Assembly: GCF_004684085.1 (NCBI RefSeq)
Contig: NZ_SRHZ01000002.1
Span: forward strand, 1-64,000
Origin: Stenotrophomonas maltophilia
GTDB taxonomy: Bacteria > Pseudomonadota > Gammaproteobacteria > Xanthomonadales > Xanthomonadaceae
Reading direction: 5' to 3'
DNA length: 64,000 nucleotides
The translations under genes and the position numbers were made by a program. Numbering within the stretch: position 1 is the stretch's first letter; each line of letters opens with the position of its first letter. The notes under the pieces were generated by a model. It made no database searches and was not told where the DNA came from. It worked only from the letters and a program-made list of their open reading frames with translations. Positions 6,924 through 64,000 of the stretch are shown here, one piece after another.

Positions 6924-8528
6924 ATGCAACGACGCGACTTCATCCGCAATGCCTCCCTCGCCCTGGCTGCATTCGGCCTGCCGTCCCTGCCCGCGTGCGC
7001 GGCCAGCAAGAGCGGCCAGATGGGCCTGCGCCGCCTCGGCCAGCCGCAGCCGTTCGATTTCGCCACCCTGAAGGGCCAGGCGCGCGCGCTGGCACAGGCG
7101 CCCTACAAGAGCCACAAGCGGGTGCTGCCGGGCCGCCTGGAAGGCCTGGACTGGGACCAGTACCAGTCGATCGGCTACCGCCAGGACCACGCGCTGTGGG
7201 CTGACCAGCCGGGCAAGTTCCAGGCCAAGTTCTTCCACCTGGGCCTGTACTTCCACTCGCCGGTGCGCATGTTCGACGTGGTTGACGGCAAGGCGCAGGA
7301 GCTGGCCTATGACGGCGCGGCGTTCAACTACGGCAAGAGCGGCATCAAGGACGGCGAGCTGCCGGCCGATCTCGGCTTTGCCGGTTTCCGCCTGAACACC
7401 CGCAAGGACACCGACCGCGATTTCGCCGCCTTCCTCGGCGCCAGTTACTTCCGCGCGGTCGGCAAAGAAGGCCAGTACGGCCAGTCCGCGCGCGGCCTGG
7501 CGATCGACACCGGCATGGGCAAGCCGGAGGAATTCCCGGACTTCATCGCCTATTACCTGGAACAGCCGTCGGCCGATTCGGAAACGATCGTGGTCTACGG
7601 CCTGCTGGATTCGCCCAGCGTGGCCGGCGCCTACCGCTTCGCGATCACCAATGGCGACGTGCTGCTGATGGATATCGACAGTGCGCTGTACCCGCGCAAG
7701 GCGATCGAGCGGCTGGGCATCGCACCGTGCACCAGCATGTACCAGGTGGGCGAGAACGACCGCCGCATGGCATGGGACTGGCGCCCGGAGATCCACGATA
7801 CCGATGGCCTGTCGCTGTGGACCGGTGCCGGCGAGTGGATCTGGCGCCCGCTGCTGAACCCGCGCAACCTGCGCTTCAACATGTTCGTGGACCGCAACCC
7901 GCGCGGCTTCGGCCTGCTGCAGCGCGACCGCAACTTCGACCATTACCAGGATGACGGCGTGTTCTACGAGAAGCGCCCCTGCCTGTGGGTGGAGCCGAAG
8001 GGCGAATGGGGCGAAGGTTCGGTGCAGCTGGTGGAGATTCCCACCGTGGACGAGACCTTCGACAACATCGTGGCGTTCTGGAACCCGAAGGAAAAGCCGC
8101 AGCCGGGTCAGGAACTGCTGGTCGGCTATCGCCTGTACTGGGGCGCCGAGCCGCCGGCACGCCCGCCGCTGGCGCACTGCGTTGCCAGCCGCACCGGCCT
8201 GGGTGGCGTGGTGGGCAAGAAGCGTGAGTACTTCAGCTGGCGCTTTGCGGTGGACTTCGAAGGCGGCGAACTGGCCGGGCTGATCGACAAGGGCGAGGTC
8301 GAGGCGGTGGTGGAAACCAGCCGTGGCCGGGTCGAGATCGTGTCGGCGCGCCCGCTACGCGAGATCAACGGTTACCGCGCGATGTTCGACCTGGTGCCGC
8401 CGGAAGGCAGCACCGAGCAGATCGACATCCGCCTGTTCCTGCGCAGTGGCGGCAAAACCCTGACCGAGACCTGGCTGTACCAGTACACCCCGCCACCGGC
8501 CGGCGCGCCGGAGCGCACGCTGTACTAA
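6924..8528 (+). CDS. opgD: Glucan biosynthesis protein D (osmoregulated periplasmic glucans)
   Basis: 534-aa periplasmic protein of the OpgG/OpgD family that helps shape the backbone of osmoregulated periplasmic glucans. The N-terminus MQRRDFIRNASLALAAF is a twin-arginine signal, as in E. coli OpgD (OpgG uses Sec). The body shows family blocks such as YQSIGYRQDHALW, FQAKFFHLGLYF and EWIWRPLLNPRNL. No opgH is seen in the window, so the glucosyltransferase must be encoded elsewhere. A hairpin and a dense set of repeats follow the stop. Confidence 0.92.
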   Translation: MQRRDFIRNASLALAAFGLPSLPACAASKSGQMGLRRLGQPQPFDFATLKGQARALAQAPYKSHKRVLPGRLEGLDWDQYQSIGYRQDHALWADQPGKFQAKFFHLGLYFHSPVRMFDVVDGKAQELAYDGAAFNYGKSGIKDGELPADLGFAGFRLNTRKDTDRDFAAFLGASYFRAVGKEGQYGQSARGLAIDTGMGKPEEFPDFIAYYLEQPSADSETIVVYGLLDSPSVAGAYRFAITNGDVLLMDIDSALYPRKAIERLGIAPCTSMYQVGENDRRMAWDWRPEIHDTDGLSLWTGAGEWIWRPLLNPRNLRFNMFVDRNPRGFGLLQRDRNFDHYQDDGVFYEKRPCLWVEPKGEWGEGSVQLVEIPTVDETFDNIVAFWNPKEKPQPGQELLVGYRLYWGAEPPARPPLAHCVASRTGLGGVVGKKREYFSWRFAVDFEGGELAGLIDKGEVEAVVETSRGRVEIVSARPLREINGYRAMFDLVPPEGSTEQIDIRLFLRSGGKTLTETWLYQYTPPPAGAPERTLY

Positions 8529-8542
8529 GAGGGGTGCGGGTT

Positions 8543-8563
8543 TGCAGGGCTTGCAGCCCTGCA
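8543..8563. terminator. Hairpin after opgD
   Basis: Perfect 9-bp stem TGCAGGGCT / AGCCCTGCA with loop TGC, 15 nt after the opgD stop. An almost identical hairpin (8-bp stem, 9035-9053) lies just past the tdk stop, so the pair brackets the whole 8.5-9.06 kb gap. Neither has a T run. Confidence 0.5.
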
Positions 8564-8569
8564 CCTGCG

Positions 8570-8592
8570 GTAGTGCCGGCCGCTGGCCGGCA
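8570..8592 (+). repeat. GTAG REP palindrome
   Basis: GTAG (8570-8573) then TGCCGGCC-GCT-GGCCGGCA. This subtype recurs at 29571-29593 and 36255-36277. Confidence 0.82.
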
Positions 8593-8625
8593 AACTCAAC
8601 AGCAGAAGCTGGTTTTCTGTGGGTA

Positions 8626-8737
8626 GGCGGGGTGGATCCGGTTGCGGGGGACGGCGTAAATACGTCCATGTAGCCTCGGTCGCGCCATCCATGGCGCTCA
8701 CGCCCCCGCAACCGGACCCGCCCCGCCTTCGACAGAT
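8626..8737 (-). repeat. 111-bp dual-hairpin element, copy 1
   Basis: Read on the minus strand this begins with ATCTGTCGAAGG (8737-8726). It then has two 25-nt arms (8703-8727 and 8626-8650) that match over 23 positions as an inverted repeat. Between them is a 52-nt core (8651-8702) with hairpin GCGCC-ATGGAT-GGCGC and a second hairpin TAC-ATGGAC-GTA. Copies 2 and 3 lie at 8869-8979 and 24495-24604. I do not recognise this family by name. Confidence 0.75.
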
Positions 8738-8763
8738 CTCCGCGATCTGTCGGAATTGCTCTT

Positions 8764-8804
8764 GGGGTCAGATCCGTTTTCCGAAAGAAAGCGGATCTGA
8801 CCCC
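8764..8804. repeat. GGGGTCAGA-type inverted repeat
   Basis: Perfect 13-bp arms GGGGTCAGATCCG / CGGATCTGACCCC around a 15-nt purine-rich loop. The same GGGGTC...GACCCC design recurs after rep (13172-13210) and inside each 117-bp unit at 51444-51794, so it is a second repeat family besides the GTAG palindromes. Confidence 0.75.
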
Positions 8805-8833
8805 GGAATTTCATTCGATATCTGACAGATTTC

Positions 8834-8856
8834 ATCCACGCATGGCGTGGATCTAC
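8834..8856 (-). repeat. GTAG REP palindrome (ATCCACGC subtype)
   Basis: On the minus strand this reads GTAG, then ATCCACGC-CAT-GCGTGGAT. The same subtype makes up the 20671-20848 array and is part of the 117-bp tandem unit near 51.5 kb. Confidence 0.82.
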
Positions 8857-8868
8857 TGGCCGTCGGGC

Positions 8869-8979
8869 ATCTGTCGAAGGTGGGGCGGTTTGGGTGGGCA
8901 GGACCGTTGGCGCCATGGATGGCGCCATCGAGCCCCCATGGATGGGTTTACGGCGTGTCCTGACCACCCACACCGCCCC
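8869..8979 (+). repeat. 111-bp dual-hairpin element, copy 2
   Basis: Starts with ATCTGTCGAAGG (8869-8880). The outer arms at 8882-8904 and 8957-8979 pair at 21 of 23 positions. The core, 8905-8956, is again exactly 52 nt and contains TGGCGCC-ATGGAT-GGCGCCA and CCC-ATGGAT-GGG, then TTTACGGCGT. It lies between the convergent genes opgD and tdk, on the opgD strand and oriented oppositely to copy 1. Confidence 0.8.
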
Positions 8980-9063
8980 GCCGTCCCACGCAATGCCGCT
9001 TTGGCTTTGGCCGTTGCCGTCGCGTTGAGCAGGTGCAGGGCTGCAAGCCCTGCCGAACACCCC

Positions 9064-9684
9064 TTACAGCGGCAGGGGCGCCTGCGCCGGATCGATCCGC
9101 CCTTCACCGCGGGTGATCTTCTTGAACTCGGCACGGCTGACCGACACGTAGCGGTCGTTGCCACCGATCTCCACCTGCGGGCCGTCCTGTACGGCATGCC
9201 CGTGCTCGTCCACGCGCACGGTCATCGTCGCCTTCTTGCCGCTGTGGCAGATGGTCTTGATCTCCTGCATCTCGTCGGCCCAGGCCAGCAGGTACTGGCT
9301 GCCTTCGAACAGCTCGCCGCGGAAGTCGGTACGCAGGCCGTAGCAGAGCACCGGAATGCGCAGCTGATCCACGACTTCGCTGAGCTGCCAGACCTGGGCG
9401 CGGGTGAGGAACTGCGCCTCGTCCACCAGCACGCAGCCTATCGGACCATTCGTCGCCAGATCCTGCTCCACCCAGCGCTGCAGGTCGGTATCGCGGTCGA
9501 AGGCCATGCCGTCCGCTCGCAGGCCGATGCGCGAGGCAACCACGCCGGCACCGGCACGATCATCCAGGCGCGGGGTCAGGATCGCAACCCGCATGCCGCG
9601 CTCGCGGTAGTTGTGCGCGCTCTGCAGCAGGGTAGTGGTCTTGCCGGCGTTCATCGCCGAATAGTAGAAATAGAGCTTGGCCAT
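9064..9684 (-). CDS. tdk: Thymidine kinase
   Basis: 206-aa type II thymidine kinase of nucleotide salvage (thymidine + ATP to dTMP). It starts [20 protein letters not shown] with the P-loop GKTT. The Walker B-like motif is VDEAQFL, and the lasso/substrate region shows YGLRTDF and the ending [11 protein letters not shown]. The length is normal. Of the four zinc cysteines found in some type II kinases, only scattered ones are seen (for example in [10 protein letters not shown]), as in gammaproteobacterial enzymes. It is cytoplasmic and lies 9 nt before the Sel1-like gene in the same direction. Confidence 0.95.
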
Positions 9685-20659: not shown

Positions 20660-20670
20660 CCCTTGGCGGT

Positions 20671-20848
20671 CATCCACGCATGGCGTGGATCTACCGGGCA
20701 TCACGTGGGGTGTGGATTTACGGGGCATCCACGCATGGCGTGGATCTACCGGGCATCACGTCGGGTGTGGATTTACGGGGCATCCACGCGTGGCGTGGGT
20801 CTACCGGGAAGGGGCGCGCCGGCAGTAGATCCACGCCATGCGTGGATG
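20671..20848. repeat. 55-bp tandem REP array plus inverted copy
   Basis: Three units begin CATCCACGC(A/G)TGGCGTGG at 20671, 20726 and 20781, giving a period of exactly 55 bp. Each contains one ATCCACGC palindrome and a spacer ending GTGTGGATTTACGGGG; the third unit is truncated. A GTAG element in the opposite orientation closes the array (20825-20847). The array separates the convergent genes of the small secreted protein and the DUF465 protein. Confidence 0.85.
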
Positions 20849-23049: not shown

Positions 23050-23829
23050 ATGAGCCGTCTGCTGCGCCGCCTGATCAGCCCGACCCCGCCCGCCACCGTA
23101 CAGCGCGACACCGTTCGCCTGCGCCTGGAGGATGCCGAGATCGAGGTCCTGCGCGTGCGCGATCCGCGTGCGCGCCGGATCAAGCTGAGCGTGGACGAGC
23201 GCGGCGCACGGTTGACCCTGCCGCCGCGCGCAAGCCTGGTGATGGGCGAGCGCTTCCTGGAACAGCACCGCGACTGGCTGGCGCTGCAGCTGCGCCAGTA
23301 CCAGGGCCAGGGACTGCCGGCACCCCTGCAGCCGGGCGAAGCCGGCGTGCTGCCACTGCGCGGCGAACTGTTGCCGCTGCGTTGGCAGGAAGGTCGCTAC
23401 GCACGGCTGGAGATCGACGACCACGGCGCATGCGTGCAATGGCCGAGCCGTGGCGGCGATGCGACCCTGCGGCGCCTGCTGCGCGAGTTCTACGAAGCAC
23501 AGACCCGCGCCGATGTCGGCCGCTGGCTGCCGAAGTACCTTCCTTCCCTCCCACGCGCACCCAGCCGCCTGCGCCTGAAGGTGATGTCCTCGCAATGGGG
23601 CTCACTGGCCCCCGATGGCAGCATGGCATTGGACCTGGCCCTGGTGCTCGGTCGTTCGGAAGCGTTCGAGTACGTGCTGGTGCACGAGCTCTGCCACCTG
23701 ATCCAGGCCAACCACTCGCCTGCGTTCTGGCACGAAGTGGAACAACGCTTCCCCGCTTGGCGCGAACAGCGCGATTACTTCCAGCTGGAAGGCCGCCGAC
23801 TGAAGGCGATGCTGCGGCAACTGCTATAG
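23050..23829 (+). CDS. YgjP/SprT-like zinc metalloprotease (DUF45)
   Basis: 259-aa protein of the YgjP-like M48-related group. The zinc motif HELCH is in the block LVHELCHLIQANHSPAFWHEVEQ, where the later His and Glu are the usual third ligand region. The N-terminal half carries a beta-rich DUF45 part (IKLSVDERGARLTLPPR). No signal peptide, so cytoplasmic. Its substrate is unknown. It is alone after rdgC and followed by a 7-bp hairpin. Confidence 0.85.
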   Translation: MSRLLRRLISPTPPATVQRDTVRLRLEDAEIEVLRVRDPRARRIKLSVDERGARLTLPPRASLVMGERFLEQHRDWLALQLRQYQGQGLPAPLQPGEAGVLPLRGELLPLRWQEGRYARLEIDDHGACVQWPSRGGDATLRRLLREFYEAQTRADVGRWLPKYLPSLPRAPSRLRLKVMSSQWGSLAPDGSMALDLALVLGRSEAFEYVLVHELCHLIQANHSPAFWHEVEQRFPAWREQRDYFQLEGRRLKAMLRQLL

Positions 23830-24425: not shown

Positions 24426-24494
24426 AGAAGAGCGCGCACAGCGCGCGACCCGCTTTTGCTCTTCTTTTCTTTCTTCCGTGGTGGGCACACCGGA

Positions 24495-24604
24495 ATCTGT
24501 CGAAGGACGGGATGGGTGGGATTGCGGGGGTGTCCGCGGCATGGATGCCGTGGCCAAGCCCCCATGGATGGGTCTACGGCGTCCCCCGTAATTCCACCCA
24601 TCCC
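24495..24604 (+). repeat. 111-bp dual-hairpin element, copy 3
   Basis: Begins ATCTGTCGAAGG (24495-24506). Outer arms 24509-24530 and 24583-24604 pair at all 22 positions if two G-U pairs are allowed. The core 24531-24582 is exactly 52 nt, with CCGCGGC-ATGGAT-GCCGTGG and CCC-ATGGAT-GGG. It lies after the small membrane protein gene, on its strand, facing the leftward methylglyoxal synthase gene. Confidence 0.8.
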
Positions 24605-24667
24605 GGCCAACCTCATGACCGCGCAGGCCCAACCCACCACGAGGGGCTCAGCCGTTGGCCGAATCCC

Positions 24668-25534
24668 TCAGCCCGCCCGCAACGCCGCCGCGGTCGCCCA
24701 CCGCGCCGCCACCCGTGGCGCCGTAATACACACCGCCTGATCGGTCACCGTCGTCACCGCGCGTTCCAGCAGCTGGATGTCCGCCTCGTGCTGGCGCGCC
24801 ACATGCGGATCCTCGAAGAAGATCGCGCGCTGGCAGCGCCCCTCCAGCACCCGGTCGGCAATCTGCGCGTCGCCACCCATCGGGCCGCTCTGGTAGCGCG
24901 TCACCCACGGTGTGTCGCTGGGCCAACCGCGGCTCCAGGCCAGCTCATTCAAGCGCTGGCCGGTGGTACCGGTCGCTACGCGCTCACCGAACCGGGCCAG
25001 CACATCGAAGTGCTCATCGGCGAAGGCCAGCATCGCCGGCTTCATCGCATCGTGCGCGATCAGGGCCAGCGTCTGCTGTTCGAACGCATGCAGGTCGTCG
25101 GCGCCGCCGTCGGCGGCCAGGCCGGCGTGGATACGTTCGACCTCGACCCAGTCGCGCGCCGTCGCCACGGTCGAAATGAACGGCTTGCCGTGGATCACGC
25201 ACTGTCGCTTCAGCGCGGTCGCTTCCGGGAACACCGAGGAGGGATCGACCGGATCGATCAGATAGATCGCGCCATCCAGGGTCCGCTCCGGGCCCATGCC
25301 GACCACCTCGGCAACCAGTTTCATCAACCCACCTTCGCGGCCATAGGGATAACGGTGCAGGCCGTCGTATCCGGCCAGGAAGCCATGCCGTTCGATCGCA
25401 TCATGGGTGCGCCCGACCGCGTGCAGCGATACACCGAGTTCGCGCAGACCGGGCTCGCTGGCACGCAGCCAACGGAACAGGGCGGCGCGCACGTCGTGGT
25501 GGTGAAGACGGTTGGCAGCCAAGCCGATACGCAT
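24668..25534 (-). CDS. mgsA: Two-domain methylglyoxal synthase
   Basis: 288-aa protein, about twice the usual length (E. coli MgsA is 152 aa). Residues about 155-288 are a full MGS domain converting dihydroxyacetone phosphate to methylglyoxal. It shows ALIAHDAMKP (His-Asp), ATGTTGQRL, GPMGGDAQI, and FFEDP followed by HEADIQ, so the catalytic aspartates and the His-x2-Asp are kept. Residues 1-150 look like a diverged second MGS-like domain: IGLAANRLHHHDV aligns with the first strand, VGRTHDAI with the phosphate loop, and DGAIYLIDPVDPSS with FFEDP, but the catalytic residues are lost. It is probably cytoplasmic, with the N-terminal domain regulatory. It is divergent from the hybrid kinase. Confidence 0.85.
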   Translation of the reverse strand: MRIGLAANRLHHHDVRAALFRWLRASEPGLRELGVSLHAVGRTHDAIERHGFLAGYDGLHRYPYGREGGLMKLVAEVVGMGPERTLDGAIYLIDPVDPSSVFPEATALKRQCVIHGKPFISTVATARDWVEVERIHAGLAADGGADDLHAFEQQTLALIAHDAMKPAMLAFADEHFDVLARFGERVATGTTGQRLNELAWSRGWPSDTPWVTRYQSGPMGGDAQIADRVLEGRCQRAIFFEDPHVARQHEADIQLLERAVTTVTDQAVCITAPRVAARWATAAALRAG

Positions 25535-50770: not shown

Positions 50771-51445
50771 ATGTTGCTGCGTTCCCTGTTCCTGCTTGCC
50801 ACGCTGAGCCCGCTTGCTGCGTTCGCCAGTGAGCTGGCTGACGGCGGTTCCTGCCGCAATGGCGCGTTCCCCTCTCAACAACAAGGCTTCGCGCTGGCCA
50901 AGGTAATCGGCACGCCGCGCCTGTATCTGCTTGGCGACATGGACGGCTGCCCTGCCAAGGGCGAACCGGCCTGCCGTCAGCGCAGTTACGTGGTCAACGG
51001 CGATACGGTGGTGACCGGGCGCGACTTGGACGGCTATCGCTGCGCGTTCTTCCCGAACAAGGTCGGCGGCAGTGCCGGTTGGGTCGACCGCAGCAAGCTG
51101 CAGCCGTTGCCGGTGGACGTGCCGTCGCTGCAGGACTGGACGGGCAACTGGAAAGACGGCGACAACGGGTTGAAGATTCGCGTGCAGGACGGACAGCTGC
51201 ATGTGGAGGGTGACGCCTACTGGCCGTCCGCCAATCCGTCGCCGGAGGTCCGTCCCTATGGGCCCAACATGGGCCAGGTGGAAGCGCGTGCGGCGCCACA
51301 CGGCACCGACGTGGAGTTCGTCGAGGACACCTGCAGGATGCGCGTGCATTCGCTGGGTGAGGTGCTGATCGTGGCCGACAACAGCGAATGTGGCGGCATG
51401 AACGTGCGCTTCAATGGCGTGTACCGGCGCGCGGACACGCGTTGA
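50771..51445 (+). CDS. Secreted hypothetical protein
   Basis: 224-aa protein with a signal peptide (1-20, cleavage near AFASE). Seven cysteines (SCRNG, DGCPAKG, PACRQ, YRCAFF, DTCRM, SECGG and others) and beta-strand patterns suggest a disulfide-bonded periplasmic or surface protein. A segment reading YVVNGDTVVTGRDLDGYRCAFF followed by GWVDRSKL looks like a bacterial SH3-type fold, which is only a suggestion. It probably forms a two-gene unit with the preceding gene. Its stop touches the first base of the 117-bp tandem repeat. Confidence 0.6.
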   Translation: MLLRSLFLLATLSPLAAFASELADGGSCRNGAFPSQQQGFALAKVIGTPRLYLLGDMDGCPAKGEPACRQRSYVVNGDTVVTGRDLDGYRCAFFPNKVGGSAGWVDRSKLQPLPVDVPSLQDWTGNWKDGDNGLKIRVQDGQLHVEGDAYWPSANPSPEVRPYGPNMGQVEARAAPHGTDVEFVEDTCRMRVHSLGEVLIVADNSECGGMNVRFNGVYRRADTR

Positions 51446-51794
51446 AAAGCGCCAACCAAGGTTGGCATCTACGGTAGATCCACGCCATGCGTGGACGCTG
51501 TCTGCGATGCAATGGGTGGGGTCAGCGCCCTTTCGCAGACGAAAGGGATCCGACCCCGTCGAAAAGCGCCAACCAAGGTTGGCATCTACGGTAGATCCAC
51601 GCCACGCGTGGATGCTGTCTGCGGTCCAATCGGTGAGGTCAGAGCCCTTTCGCGGGCGAAAGGGATCCGACCCCGTCGAAAAGCGCCAACCAAGGTTGGC
51701 ATCTACGGTAGATCCACGCCATGCGTGGATGCTGTCTGCGATGCAATGGGTGGGGTCAGAACCCTTTCGCGGACGAAAGGGATCCGACCCCGGG
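51444..51794. repeat. Three tandem 117-bp repeats
   Basis: Units start at 51444, 51561 and 51678, each exactly 117 bp and nearly identical. Every unit holds three palindromes in order: GCCAACC-AA-GGTTGGC, a GTAG/ATCCACGC element, and a GGGGTC...CCTTTCGC...GCGAAAGG...GACCCC hairpin. Because 117 is divisible by 3, open frames run through it on both strands, but these are not genes. It fills the gap between two convergent stop codons. Confidence 0.92.
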
Positions 51795-60850: not shown

Positions 60851-62485
60851 TCAGCCGAGGCTGCGTGCGGTGTTGATGACGTTGATGCCGTTGAAGCGCG
60901 CGGTGGACGAGCCGTGCGAGACCGCCGAGACCTGGCCGGGCTGGCCCTTGCCGTCGAAGAACGAACCGCCCAGGCGGTAGTCACTCTCGTCGGCCACGGC
61001 GGTGCAGGCGTTCCAGAACTCCGGCGTGCGGATCTGGTAGGCCACGTCCTCCAGCATGCGGGTGATCTGACCGTTCTTGATCTCGTAGAACAGCTGGCCG
61101 CCGAACTGCGCGTTGTAGCGCTGCTGGTCGATCGAGAACGAACCATCACCGATGATGTAGATGCCGTTCTCCACGTCCTTGATCAGGTCGGGCACGCTCA
61201 GCGGCTTCTTGCCCGGTGCCATCGACACGTTGGCCATGCGCTGGAACTGCACGCTGGACCACGAGTCGGCATAGCAGCAGCCGTCCGACTCGGTCTTGCC
61301 GAGGATGTGGGCCTGGTCGCGGATGGTCTGGTAGTCCACCAGCTTGCCGTTGCTGATCAGGTCCCAGCGCTTGCACTTCACGCCTTCGTCGTCGTACGCC
61401 ACCGCGCCGAGGCTGCCCTGCTGGGTCTTGTCGGCAAAGATGTTGACCAGCTCGCTGCCGTACTGGAAATGCTGCTCGCGCTTGTCCAGGGTGGCGAAGC
61501 TGGTACCGGCGTAGTTGGCTTCGTAGCCGAGCACGCGGTCCAGCTCCAGCGGGTGGCCGATCGATTCGTGGATGGTCAGCCAGGTGTGCGACGGGTCGAG
61601 CACAAGATCGTACTTGCCCGGCTTCACCGACGGTGCCTTCAACTTCTCCTGCGCCTGCTTGGCGGCGGCGATGGCGTCTTCCTTCATGTCGTAGGAGGAG
61701 CTGTAGTTGACCACGCCGTTGGGGCTGACCACCTTGCCGGCGGCGGCGCCGTCGAGGTACTCGTAGCCCAGGCCCATCGGCGAAGACAGGCCCGAACGGG
61801 TGCGGAACTTGCCGCTGGTCTTGTCGATGGCGGTGACGGTCATCGGCGCCCAGATGCGGTGTACATCCTGGTCGATGTAGGAACCATCGGTGGAGGCAAA
61901 GTACTTCTGCTCGTTGACCAGGAACAGCATCGAATTGACGAAGCTGGCACCGGCGCTCATCGCGGCAGCGTTGACGTCCAGCAGCAGGCCGACCTTGTCT
62001 TTGATCGGCACCTCCATCGCGTTCTTGCGGATCGGCGTGCGCCAGCTCACCTCACCTACGCCCGGCGCCTTGGCCAGCTGCACCGGTGCGGTCTGCACGC
62101 CGGCGTTGGCCTTGGCGATCGCCGCGGCCTGCTGCGCGGCGCGTGCCACATCGGCCGTGCCCAGCGCGTTGGTGGCGGCAAAGCCCCATGCGCCGTTGAC
62201 GATCACACGGATGCCCACACCGGTGGACTCGGTGTTCACCACGTTCTGTACCTTGTCCTCGCGGGTGATCACGAACTGCCGCAGGTAGCGGCCGATGCGC
62301 ACGTCGCAGTAGGTGGCGCCGGCCTGCCGGGCGGCGGCCAGCGCCGCATCGGCCAGGCGCTTCTTCAGCCCCAGGTCCAGCGTGCTCTGCAGCTGCTCGG
62401 CGGCAATCGCCTTGCCGAAGAAGGAGGGCACGATCAGCCCGCCCGCGGTAAGCCCGGTCAGGGCCAGGAAGTCACGTCTTTGCAA
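60851..62485 (-). CDS. TldD-like zinc protease with Tat signal
   Basis: 544-aa TldD-family protease. The zinc motif HESIGH is in TIHESIGHPLELDRVLG. The N-terminus MQRRDFLALTGLTAGGLIV is a good twin-arginine signal (RRDFLAL), so the protein is probably exported, which is unusual because TldD is normally cytoplasmic. The start codon is TTG; GGAGAG lies 6 nt upstream, and no in-frame ATG fits. It is 30 nt downstream of a close paralogue and 21 nt upstream of tldE. Sequence blocks such as EANYAGTSFATLDKR are shared word for word with the paralogue, marking a tandem duplication. Confidence 0.9.
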   Translation of the reverse strand: MQRRDFLALTGLTAGGLIVPSFFGKAIAAEQLQSTLDLGLKKRLADAALAAARQAGATYCDVRIGRYLRQFVITREDKVQNVVNTESTGVGIRVIVNGAWGFAATNALGTADVARAAQQAAAIAKANAGVQTAPVQLAKAPGVGEVSWRTPIRKNAMEVPIKDKVGLLLDVNAAAMSAGASFVNSMLFLVNEQKYFASTDGSYIDQDVHRIWAPMTVTAIDKTSGKFRTRSGLSSPMGLGYEYLDGAAAGKVVSPNGVVNYSSSYDMKEDAIAAAKQAQEKLKAPSVKPGKYDLVLDPSHTWLTIHESIGHPLELDRVLGYEANYAGTSFATLDKREQHFQYGSELVNIFADKTQQGSLGAVAYDDEGVKCKRWDLISNGKLVDYQTIRDQAHILGKTESDGCCYADSWSSVQFQRMANVSMAPGKKPLSVPDLIKDVENGIYIIGDGSFSIDQQRYNAQFGGQLFYEIKNGQITRMLEDVAYQIRTPEFWNACTAVADESDYRLGGSFFDGKGQPGQVSAVSHGSSTARFNGINVINTARSLG

Positions 62486-62515
62486 GGCTGCTCTCCATGT
62501 CGAAGGATGGGTGGC

Positions 62516-64000
62516 TCAAGCGCCGAGACTGCGCGCGGTGTTGATGATGTTGATGCCGTTGAAGCGGGTGGTGGACGAACCGTGCGAGACCGCCGAGACC
62601 TGGCCGGGCTGGCCCTTGCCGTCGAAGAACGAACCACCCAGGCGGAAGTCGCGTTCATCGCAGATGGCGGTGCAGGCGTTCCAGAATTCCGGCGTGCGGA
62701 TCTGGTAGGCCGCGTCCTCGACCATGCCGGCGATCTTTCCGTCCTTGATCTGGTAGTACAGCTGGCCGCCGAACTGCGCGTTGTAGCGCTGCTGGTCGAT
62801 GGAATAGGAGCCACGGCCGTGGATGTAGATGCCGTTCTCCACGTCCTTGATCATGTCCTCGACGCTGAGCGGCTTCCTGCCAGGCGCCAGCGAGACATTG
62901 GCCATGCGCTGGAACTGCACGCTGGACCAGGAATCGGCGTAGCTGCAGCCGTGCGAGGCATCGCGGCCGAGGATATGGGCTTCATCGCGGGTGGCCTGGT
63001 AATCGACCAGGATGCCGTCGCGCACCAGGTCCCAGCGCTGGGTCTTGACGCCTTCGTCGTCGTAGCCGACCGCACCGAGGCTGCCGGGCTGGGTCTTGTC
63101 GGCGAAGAAGGTGACGATGTCGCTGCCCCAGCGGAAACCGGCATCGCGCTTGTCCAGCGTGGCGAAGCTGGTGCCGGCGTAGTTGGCTTCGTAGCCGAGC
63201 ACGCGGTCCAGCTCCAGCGGGTGGCCGACGTTCTCGTGGATGGTCAGGAACAGGTTGGACGGGTCCAGCACCAGGTCGTACTTGCCGGGCTTCACCGACG
63301 GTGCCTTCAGCTTCTCGCGCGCGTGGCGGGCGGCGGCGATGGCGTCCTCGACCGGGTCGTAGGAATCGCGGTAGGCGGTGATGCCACCGGGCAGGTGCAC
63401 CTTGCCGCGCGCATCGCCATCAAGGAACTCGTAGCCCATGCCCATCGGCGAGGACAGGCCGGCGCGCGTGCGGAACTTGCCGCTGGCCTTGTCGATGGCG
63501 GTGGCAGTGAACGGCAGCCAGATGCGGTGGATGTCCTGGTCGATGAACGAGCCATCGCTGGACGCGAAGTACTTCTGTTCGTTGACCAGGAACAGAGTGG
63601 AATTGATGTAGTCGGCCCCCGCATTCAGCGCGGCGGCATTGAGCGCCAGCAGCAGCTCGACCTTGTCCTGGATCGGCACCGCCATCGCGTTCCTGCGGAC
63701 CGGGGTCTGCCAGCGGACCTCACCGACTGACGGCGTCGGCGCCAGCTGCACCGGACGGGTCTGGATACCGGCATTGGCGCGGGCGATGGCCGTAGCCTGC
63801 TCGACCGCAGCGCGCACCGCGGCCTCGGTCTGCTGGTGCGTTGCAGCGAAGCCCCAGGCCCCATTGACGATCACCCGCACGCCCACGCCGGACGATTCGC
63901 GGTTGGTCACATTGCCGACCTGGTGCTCGCGGGTGATGACCGACTGGTTGAGGTAGCGGCCGATGCGGACATCGCAGTAGCTGGCCTTGGCCGAGCGTGC
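62516..64000 (-). CDS. TldD-like zinc protease, paralogue (N-terminus beyond window)
   Basis: At least 495 codons, open to the window edge. The zinc motif HENVGH is in TIHENVGHPLELDRVLG. The reading frame continues without a stop to 64000, giving SYCDVRIGRYLNQSVITRE, which aligns with the paralogue's TYCDVRIGRYLRQFVITRE, so about 45 N-terminal residues are missing. Whether it also has a Tat signal cannot be seen. Apart from Ser/Asn-level changes it is highly similar to the next gene, and it heads or continues the leftward operon. Confidence 0.9.
   Translation of the reverse strand, partial: ARSAKASYCDVRIGRYLNQSVITREHQVGNVTNRESSGVGVRVIVNGAWGFAATHQQTEAAVRAAVEQATAIARANAGIQTRPVQLAPTPSVGEVRWQTPVRRNAMAVPIQDKVELLLALNAAALNAGADYINSTLFLVNEQKYFASSDGSFIDQDIHRIWLPFTATAIDKASGKFRTRAGLSSPMGMGYEFLDGDARGKVHLPGGITAYRDSYDPVEDAIAAARHAREKLKAPSVKPGKYDLVLDPSNLFLTIHENVGHPLELDRVLGYEANYAGTSFATLDKRDAGFRWGSDIVTFFADKTQPGSLGAVGYDDEGVKTQRWDLVRDGILVDYQATRDEAHILGRDASHGCSYADSWSSVQFQRMANVSLAPGRKPLSVEDMIKDVENGIYIHGRGSYSIDQQRYNAQFGGQLYYQIKDGKIAGMVEDAAYQIRTPEFWNACTAICDERDFRLGGSFFDGKGQPGQVSAVSHGSSTTRFNGINIINTARSLGA

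Follow-up and report, generated by a model that had tools for sequence, protein, structure and literature searches.

A YPAL-like mobile repeat of Gammaproteobacteria with a strand-specific two-hairpin core and candidate CsrA/RsmA docking tips

The window (the whole 64,000-nucleotide stretch of Stenotrophomonas maltophilia contig NZ_SRHZ01000002.1 that was analysed) contains three copies of a repeat, each starting with ATCTGTCGAAGG. Copies 1 and 2 point away from each other within a larger composite unit that also holds other palindromes, in the spacer between two convergent open reading frames (ORFs), and copy 3 lies in a second unit amid convergent ORFs 23050-23829 (+) and 24668-25534 (-). 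The features are as follows, with matches to our covariance model of the element, R1, given for each copy.

About 8528-9063: larger composite repeat, which takes up the spacer between convergent ORFs 6924-8528 (+) and 9064-9684 (-)
8626-8737, minus strand: element copy 1 with its paired arms; R1 match at 8631-8722 (-), 96.8 bits
8651-8702, minus strand: core of copy 1, 52 nt, hairpins P2 and P3 with loops ATGGAT and ATGGAC
8761-8806, no strand: GGGGTCAGATCC..GGATCTGACCCC palindrome in the left spacer
8830-8856, no strand: palindrome of the GTAG (SMAG) type in the left spacer, belonging to repeat families of the window
8869-8979, plus strand: element copy 2 with its paired arms; R1 match at 8885-8976 (+), 102.2 bits
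8905-8956, plus strand: core of copy 2, 52 nt, both loops ATGGAT
24445-24668, plus strand: larger unit around copy 3, approximate borders from the extent of homology to other loci
24495-24604, plus strand: element copy 3 with its paired arms; R1 match at 24511-24602 (+), 100.8 bits
24531-24582, plus strand: core of copy 3, 52 nt

The original prediction had described a family of three copies with a core of exactly 52 nt, set within outer arms that are complementary inside each copy. All three copies lie where it placed them, with the same opening letters, complementary arms and a 52-nt core, but the family is far larger than three and its core length is nearly always, not absolutely, fixed. 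Folded as RNA, the window copies have z-scores of -6.29, -4.95 and -5.93, and none of 200 shuffles of any copy folds as well. Homology to the left unit elsewhere in the genome that carries the window (the own genome below) spans 8528-9062, for example over 557 nt at 80% in L009. No sigma-70-like promoter was found within 8500-9100, and no Rfam family matches in the window at its gathering cut-off; the miRNA and other Rfam families that match six element-holding loci at E≤5 are all below their cut-offs. The window also has long direct repeats 1668 bp apart at 60854-63992 (72-88% identity, possibly a duplicated gene or domain) and tandem arrays of 117-bp units at 51440-51792 and of 55-bp units at 20668-20832, each with a GTAG-type palindrome.

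GC-rich intergenic DNA generally folds well (shuffles of the window copies average about -47 to -49 kcal/mol), as would be expected if these repeats were chance palindromes in a GC-rich genome. The element is modelled as a three-way junction of P1, formed by the arms, with P2 (core positions 1-2 with 25-26 and 4-10 with 17-23) and P3 (28-30 with 48-50 and 31-33 with 40-42). A statistical covariation test, proposed with the original prediction, was run on alignment A2, which comprises 23 own-genome copies and 35 pairs (805 cells) and leaves out L023:163-254 (shortened core), L004 (close to L006) and the copies with loop inserts. In A2, pairing covers 97.6% of cells, compared with 71.9% in shuffles. 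Double changes are seen in 31 of the 35 pairs, and the covariation score reaches 0.646, with shuffles averaging 0.174. Sliding the register lowered pairing to at most 46.2% and the score to at most 0.102. A class-wide set of 25 elements behaves similarly (98.5% of cells paired, double changes in 32 of 35 pairs, slides at most 46.7%), a result that leans to the structure model because these elements were found with it. Independently of structure, a scan of public genome contigs with a pattern for the core alone found at least 118 stretches, 80 of them as loci (82 hits, 74 with 20-nt flanks). In the 52-nt register, 70 of these 74, among the matches listed, pair at 14 or more of their 20 arm positions, a level that arms swapped between loci reach in about 8%. 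Thus arms do not generally lose their pairing from copy to copy, and the stem letters are nearly free provided that pairing stays. This covariation and arm pairing, together with the abundance of the element in its own genome and across the class (see below), refute an origin by chance, to which we give next to no credence.

Mismatches tell which strand folds: an excess of G.U over A.C means that the named strand must fold, since the opposite strand would show the reverse. In the own genome, where 66 of 71 copies entered the test (five with a loop insert were left out), there were 30 G.U events and 4 A.C events (p 3e-6) once repeats of an event within a subfamily and position had been collapsed. 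Class-wide, the test used the arms of core-only hits, and among the matches listed 47 of 49 distinct arms entered it, namely those with at least 10 Watson-Crick positions; their cells comprise 847 Watson-Crick, 33 G.U/U.G, 12 A.C/C.A and 48 other combinations (one-sided p 0.0012). Among the matches listed, 46 elements have 12 or more paired positions; counted per element, G.U outnumbers A.C in 14 of them and A.C outnumbers G.U in 6, with 26 ties. Covariation and the preponderance of G.U over A.C mismatches bear out the earlier proposal that it is a folded single strand which is conserved. The G.U excess alone fits folded RNA or folded single-stranded DNA without telling them apart, and strand-specific folding is also expected if the core is a selfish mobility signal with no RNA role, that is, a single-stranded DNA hairpin recognized by a transposase (HUH/Y1, as for REPs) or by another DNA enzyme.

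The length of the core does not vary freely: among 91 matches in other genomes it is 52 nt in 79, 53 nt in six, 51 nt in three, 50 nt in two and 55 nt in one. An insert in a core loop occurs in five of the 71 own-genome copies, the broken loop being that of P3. Extra hairpin modules inside the P2 or P3 loop were seen in the own genome, in a relative and in G288, a related genome discussed below (L018, L019, L021, L315, L331; L241; L376-L378), and those of G288 nest and bear further GGA/UCC tips. L131 and L157 share two kinds of tail with the sides exchanged: the core is flipped relative to the tails, which gives the look of a heart that inverts within its arms. In L138 and L154, from one metagenome genome, the arms are perfect over 37-48 bp and apparently unrelated to each other; in other genomes, the arms of different copies are recognizably related. 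The perfect arms suggested that arms might be born by inverted copying of the target, an origin that we did not adopt because, in Stenotrophomonas and in G288, the arms are themselves flanked by conserved tails.

BLAST with one copy gave 48 own-genome matches, several at contig ends. The covariance-model search, which had also been proposed with the original prediction, went further: with 150 of 5544 first-look candidates scored, R1 gave 102 own-genome matches at E≤1, 89 of them at E<0.001 and some cut by contig ends, and it found matches class-wide. Several contigs of the own assembly start or end in an element (e.g. C9, C10, C31, C37, C72), and the element is thus a likely cause of assembly breaks. 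Among relatives, 23 of 41 genomes were positive, with per-genome counts that are lower bounds limited to first-look candidates; within the genus, R1 matches in 20 of 25 genomes, own included, and in none of G004, G007, G016, G018 and G024. In Gammaproteobacteria the distribution is patchy, with 45 of 274 genomes and 40 of 221 genera positive, own included. A phylum survey found 30 of 398 genomes positive, every one of them the own genome, of the same genus or of the same class, the share of the 398 that lies outside the class not being given. The titles of the 80 listed core-only loci name gamma-proteobacterial groups, except for two isolates (4 loci) labelled only Proteobacteria. One metagenome genome, titled Klebsiella pneumoniae (L137, L168, L190), has at least six element matches, and its label may be wrong. 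A blastn search with a 56-nt core consensus at E 0.01 hit two plasmids, both of Shewanella, but neither phages nor E. coli genomes; the null for E. coli does not show absence, because the Rfam family Ysr224 (see below) gives sub-cut-off matches in the E. coli control and PMC2847712 counts three copies of YPAL, a known Yersinia repeat, in E. coli. A pattern scan of IMG/VR matched 4 contigs.

Where the element lies relative to genes bears on what it might do. Outside the own genome, 44 of 135 distinct elements lie within ORFs 400 nt or longer, although the ORFs come from a crude longest-first caller and these overlaps may be spurious. For the other elements, the median distance from core to gene is 76 nt at 3' ends (n=81) and 144 nt at 5' ends (n=70), so that cores are closer to the 3' ends. 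Such a placement, like that of the window copies between convergent genes, would suit a plain structure at mRNA 3' ends, stabilizing or terminator-like, as has been proposed for YPAL, with no specific protein involved and with loops kept only for folding. PMC2229807 agrees in that it reports YPAL to target dyad symmetry or its vicinity and possibly to affect transcripts upstream. At gene 3' ends, however, the elements are 35 in sense and 46 in antisense orientation, with no preference for sense, and this commonness of antisense copies counts against the explanation, which we regard as unlikely. The same orientation, neutral to genes, is what a mobility signal would show. Elements that lie close together are arranged with 5' sides facing in 27 of 29 distinct pairs, own genome included; two pairs are co-directional and none is convergent. 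This opposed arrangement also favors a mobility signal and recalls REPIN doublets. A hairpin beside the 5' side of the element, seen in the own genome (35 versus 6 of 53), was rejected as a general target, the count being 36 versus 40 of 97 in other genomes. We also rejected the idea that the gene between opposed elements is a transposase: opposed elements bracket aroA in two different genomes (L123 2336-3887 and L071 51-1592). This aroA reads as part of a tyrA-aroA-cmk operon, judging by the translations, with cmk seen only in L123.

Insertion could be read exactly in G288, in which the twelve retrieved copies of the element are closely alike, one of them without its right end. The units have inverted ends (CAGCAATTCCC), and the end motif CAGCAATTCCCANTTTG, at up to two mismatches, matches 165 and 155 times on the two strands, against 3 and 2 for a reversed-pattern control. 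From these matches 24 end pairs, 165-400 bp long, were read; exact 9-bp target duplications flank 16 of them, and the other eight lack an exact one. Of the 24 units, 21 fit a loose pattern for the core. The core is uninterrupted in six only, five 165-bp units and L374, and the other 18 have extra hairpins nested in or beside P2, with one tip intact. Terminal inverted repeats together with a duplication of fixed length, the marks of a MITE, were found in G288 only, as was the target-site duplication characteristic of YPAL. Stenotrophomonas copies carry outer tails other than those of G288 around the same core, and TTCCRAAT, within a CTAAATACGTGTTCCRAAT-like end, adjoins 10 of 119 elements. Thus the outer ends differ between the lineages whose ends could be read, and the heart is constant. 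Since the ends differ while the heart does not, the heart resembles a cargo or a host-factor site rather than the end recognized by a transposase.

These data argue against the core being a mobility signal in two ways. First, the inverted ends and 9-bp duplications of G288 indicate a double-strand process that works outside the core, on ends that vary between lineages around a constant core. Second, none of 33 Y1_Tnp (RAYT) loci (33 of 49 matches, in 13 genomes) carries an element within about 1.5 kb, and a RAYT/TIRYT partner was rejected on this basis. We judge a selfish signal of this kind to be less likely than not. The palindromes that do accompany such genes are of GGGGTCAG type, with two or more at 6 of the 33 Y1_Tnp loci and one at a seventh; they adjoin the Stenotrophomonas RAYT-type genes of L029, L084-L087 and L089, and the palindrome at 8761-8806 of the window is of the same kind as those beside these six genes. 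Orthologous loci also differ in what they hold. At the left site of the window, R1 matches in 15 of 30 orthologous loci, own included, with both copies in eight; the core subtype varies between species, and L235 has a 152-bp spacer without elements. At the 24495 site, R1 matches in 6 of 30 orthologous loci, own included, and other loci hold, by eye, interrupted or partial copies or, in L275, a bare palindrome. Either insertion or loss could account for the differences between filled sites and bare ones such as those of L235 and L275.

What the constant heart might offer a host is suggested by its loops. The tips fit CANGGANG, with N and the sixth loop letter free, in 32 of 32 P2 and 31 of 32 P3 hairpins of standard-length cores, which were found with R1 (26 in the class survey, 6 in the relatives survey) and chosen irrespective of loop pattern. 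Eleven rows were left out of this count, ten for odd length and L049 (+) without such a reason; among them P3 fits in 11 of 11 and P2 in 7 of 11 (off pattern in L049 (-), L072, L073 and L076). Over all 43 rows, ANGGAX tips closed by C-G occur in 39 for P2 and 42 for P3. The loop letters A, GG and A and the closing C-G pair are thus almost invariant class-wide though folding does not need them, which speaks against a plain 3'-end structure. PMC4005645 defines a high-affinity CsrA/RsmE site as an ANGGAX hexa-loop, N and X being variable, that sits immediately on a stem. By an estimate, not a test, both loops would match the four fixed letters by chance about once in 65,000, or once in 256 if similarity between the two loops is required. 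Spaced 23 nt apart, such a pair of loops would suit one CsrA/RsmA dimer. The two hairpin tips therefore look like docking sites predicted for CsrA/RsmA. CsrA was found in 44 of 48 element-bearing genomes tested; a match is absent in G048, G109 and G140, which are less than 90% complete, and in G235, which is 98% complete. All five element-free Stenotrophomonas genomes tested also have csrA, so that csrA alone does not predict the element.

That the repeat is a YPAL-type mobile element with a strand-specific folded module is well supported. The fuller explanation that we prefer, tentatively and at somewhat less than even confidence, is a MITE-like element of the YPAL kind whose folded two-hairpin module is probably bound by CsrA/RsmA, the binding being inferred from the loops; a CsrA/RsmA role is the most likely function but unproven. 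Under this explanation, the element would be short and non-autonomous. Its heart of about 52 nt is shown to fold, on one named strand, as two small hairpins on a long paired stem. In G288 this heart, either plain or with inserts nested in it, is shown to have inserted many times as part of units of 165-400 bp with inverted ends. Read-through from neighboring genes would transcribe the named strand, and one CsrA/RsmA dimer could dock on the two tips (C-ANGGAX-G). The repeat would then be a dispersed RsmA-binding element that alters the stability of host transcripts and holds part of the RsmA of the cell, and, whichever side a transcript comes from, an opposed pair would present it with one module in the right orientation.

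Several observations weigh against this CsrA/RsmA explanation. The orientation at gene 3' ends, the missing promoter at 8500-9100, the interruption of P2 in most G288 units and the modelling of Ysr224 on the opposite strand, without a GGA loop, speak against a simple two-tip 3'-UTR role everywhere. In addition, P3 is broken in the own-genome copies with inserts, P2 departs from ANGGAX in four of the left-out rows, csrA is present in genomes free of the element, and four element-bearing genomes have no CsrA match. A broader version, which strikes us as rather unlikely as a whole, would make the repeat a transposable CsrA/RsmA docking module: a single RNA part with tips kept across Gammaproteobacteria, carried by MITE-like units with lineage-specific ends and present in tens to more than 100 copies in some genomes, on which the regulator pool and many transcripts would depend. 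Binding of RsmA/CsrA at the tips, if it occurs, would mean that a mobile repeat rewires a global post-transcriptional regulator across many gamma-proteobacteria, and it would add many candidate RsmA-binding RNAs in Stenotrophomonas. Even without such binding, Yersinia YPAL and Rfam Ysr224 are joined to a class-wide family, G288 offers a genome where insertion can be read exactly, and the stem letters of the element prove almost free to change as long as pairing persists.

The element can be compared with several known systems. Like REP/BIME/REPIN sequences and the GTAG (SMAG) repeats with their RAYT genes, it consists of intergenic palindromes that form opposed doublets. Unlike them, it has no GTAG tag in its core, is longer, has a two-hairpin core and stands beside none of the 33 Y1_Tnp genes, and the distinction from GTAG palindromes drawn in the original prediction holds. 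The decoy RNAs of the Csr/Rsm system (CsrB, RsmX/Y/Z) carry more than one ANGGAX loop closed by C-G per molecule, on hairpins; they are single genes, whereas the element is a dispersed mobile repeat and a candidate binder, judged from its letters. TwoAYGGAY RNAs likewise have, by name and description, two hairpins with AYGGAY loops, as in the element. This family (RF01731) is absent among the 53 Rfam matches at E≤5 over six element-holding loci, and it is present in Rfam 15 (PMC11701678).

In S. maltophilia, TIRYT genes have TIR repeats (PMC3733652) that resemble the element in being intergenic, self-complementary, close together and in the same genus; the same source describes two TIR families in strain K279a and a GGGGWSAS motif, which the GGGGTCAG-type palindromes at Y1_Tnp loci fit. 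Because these palindromes flank 6 of the 33 RAYT-type loci and the 111-bp element none, the K279a families are most likely other repeats. Ysr224 (RF02770) gives 50 own-genome matches at E≤0.01 at the places of the element, on the opposite strand, with a best score of 40 bits against a gathering cut-off of 70; its model differs from the element in strand and loop, as noted above. Ysr224 has been placed among the most prevalent sRNAs (PMC9029176), and several expressed copies have been reported in Y. ruckeri (PMC12112432).

The original prediction had called the repeat new-looking, and in part it matches an element already described: its core is that of Yersinia YPAL/RU-2, also touched by Ysr224, and these matches make the repeat a relative of that element. 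Table 1b of PMC2759123 lists a Y. pestis RU-2 repeat of 168 nt that its author equates with YPAL; the printed RU-2 contains the core, one letter longer on our reading, and L113, with the same core as RU-2, is an R1 match (62.5 bits, E 2.5e-9). The two are alike in core letters, two-hairpin plan, intergenic position, mobility, perhaps a position near gene ends, and multiple copies, which for the element means the 89 matches at E<0.001 in its own genome. In published descriptions, YPAL is mobile in Yersinia and Erwinia carotovora with duplications of 3-26 bp (PMC2229807), which differ from the exact 9 bp of G288, and has been counted across Yersinia (PMC2847712). Within the literature searched, no paper was found to place the repeat outside enterobacteria, in Stenotrophomonas or across the class, and no YPAL report was found that mentions CsrA-like tips, class-wide spread or differing ends. 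New here, relative to YPAL, are the spread through the class, the lineage-specific ends around one core, the 9-bp duplications, the opposed pairing, the G.U excess and the ANGGAX tips.
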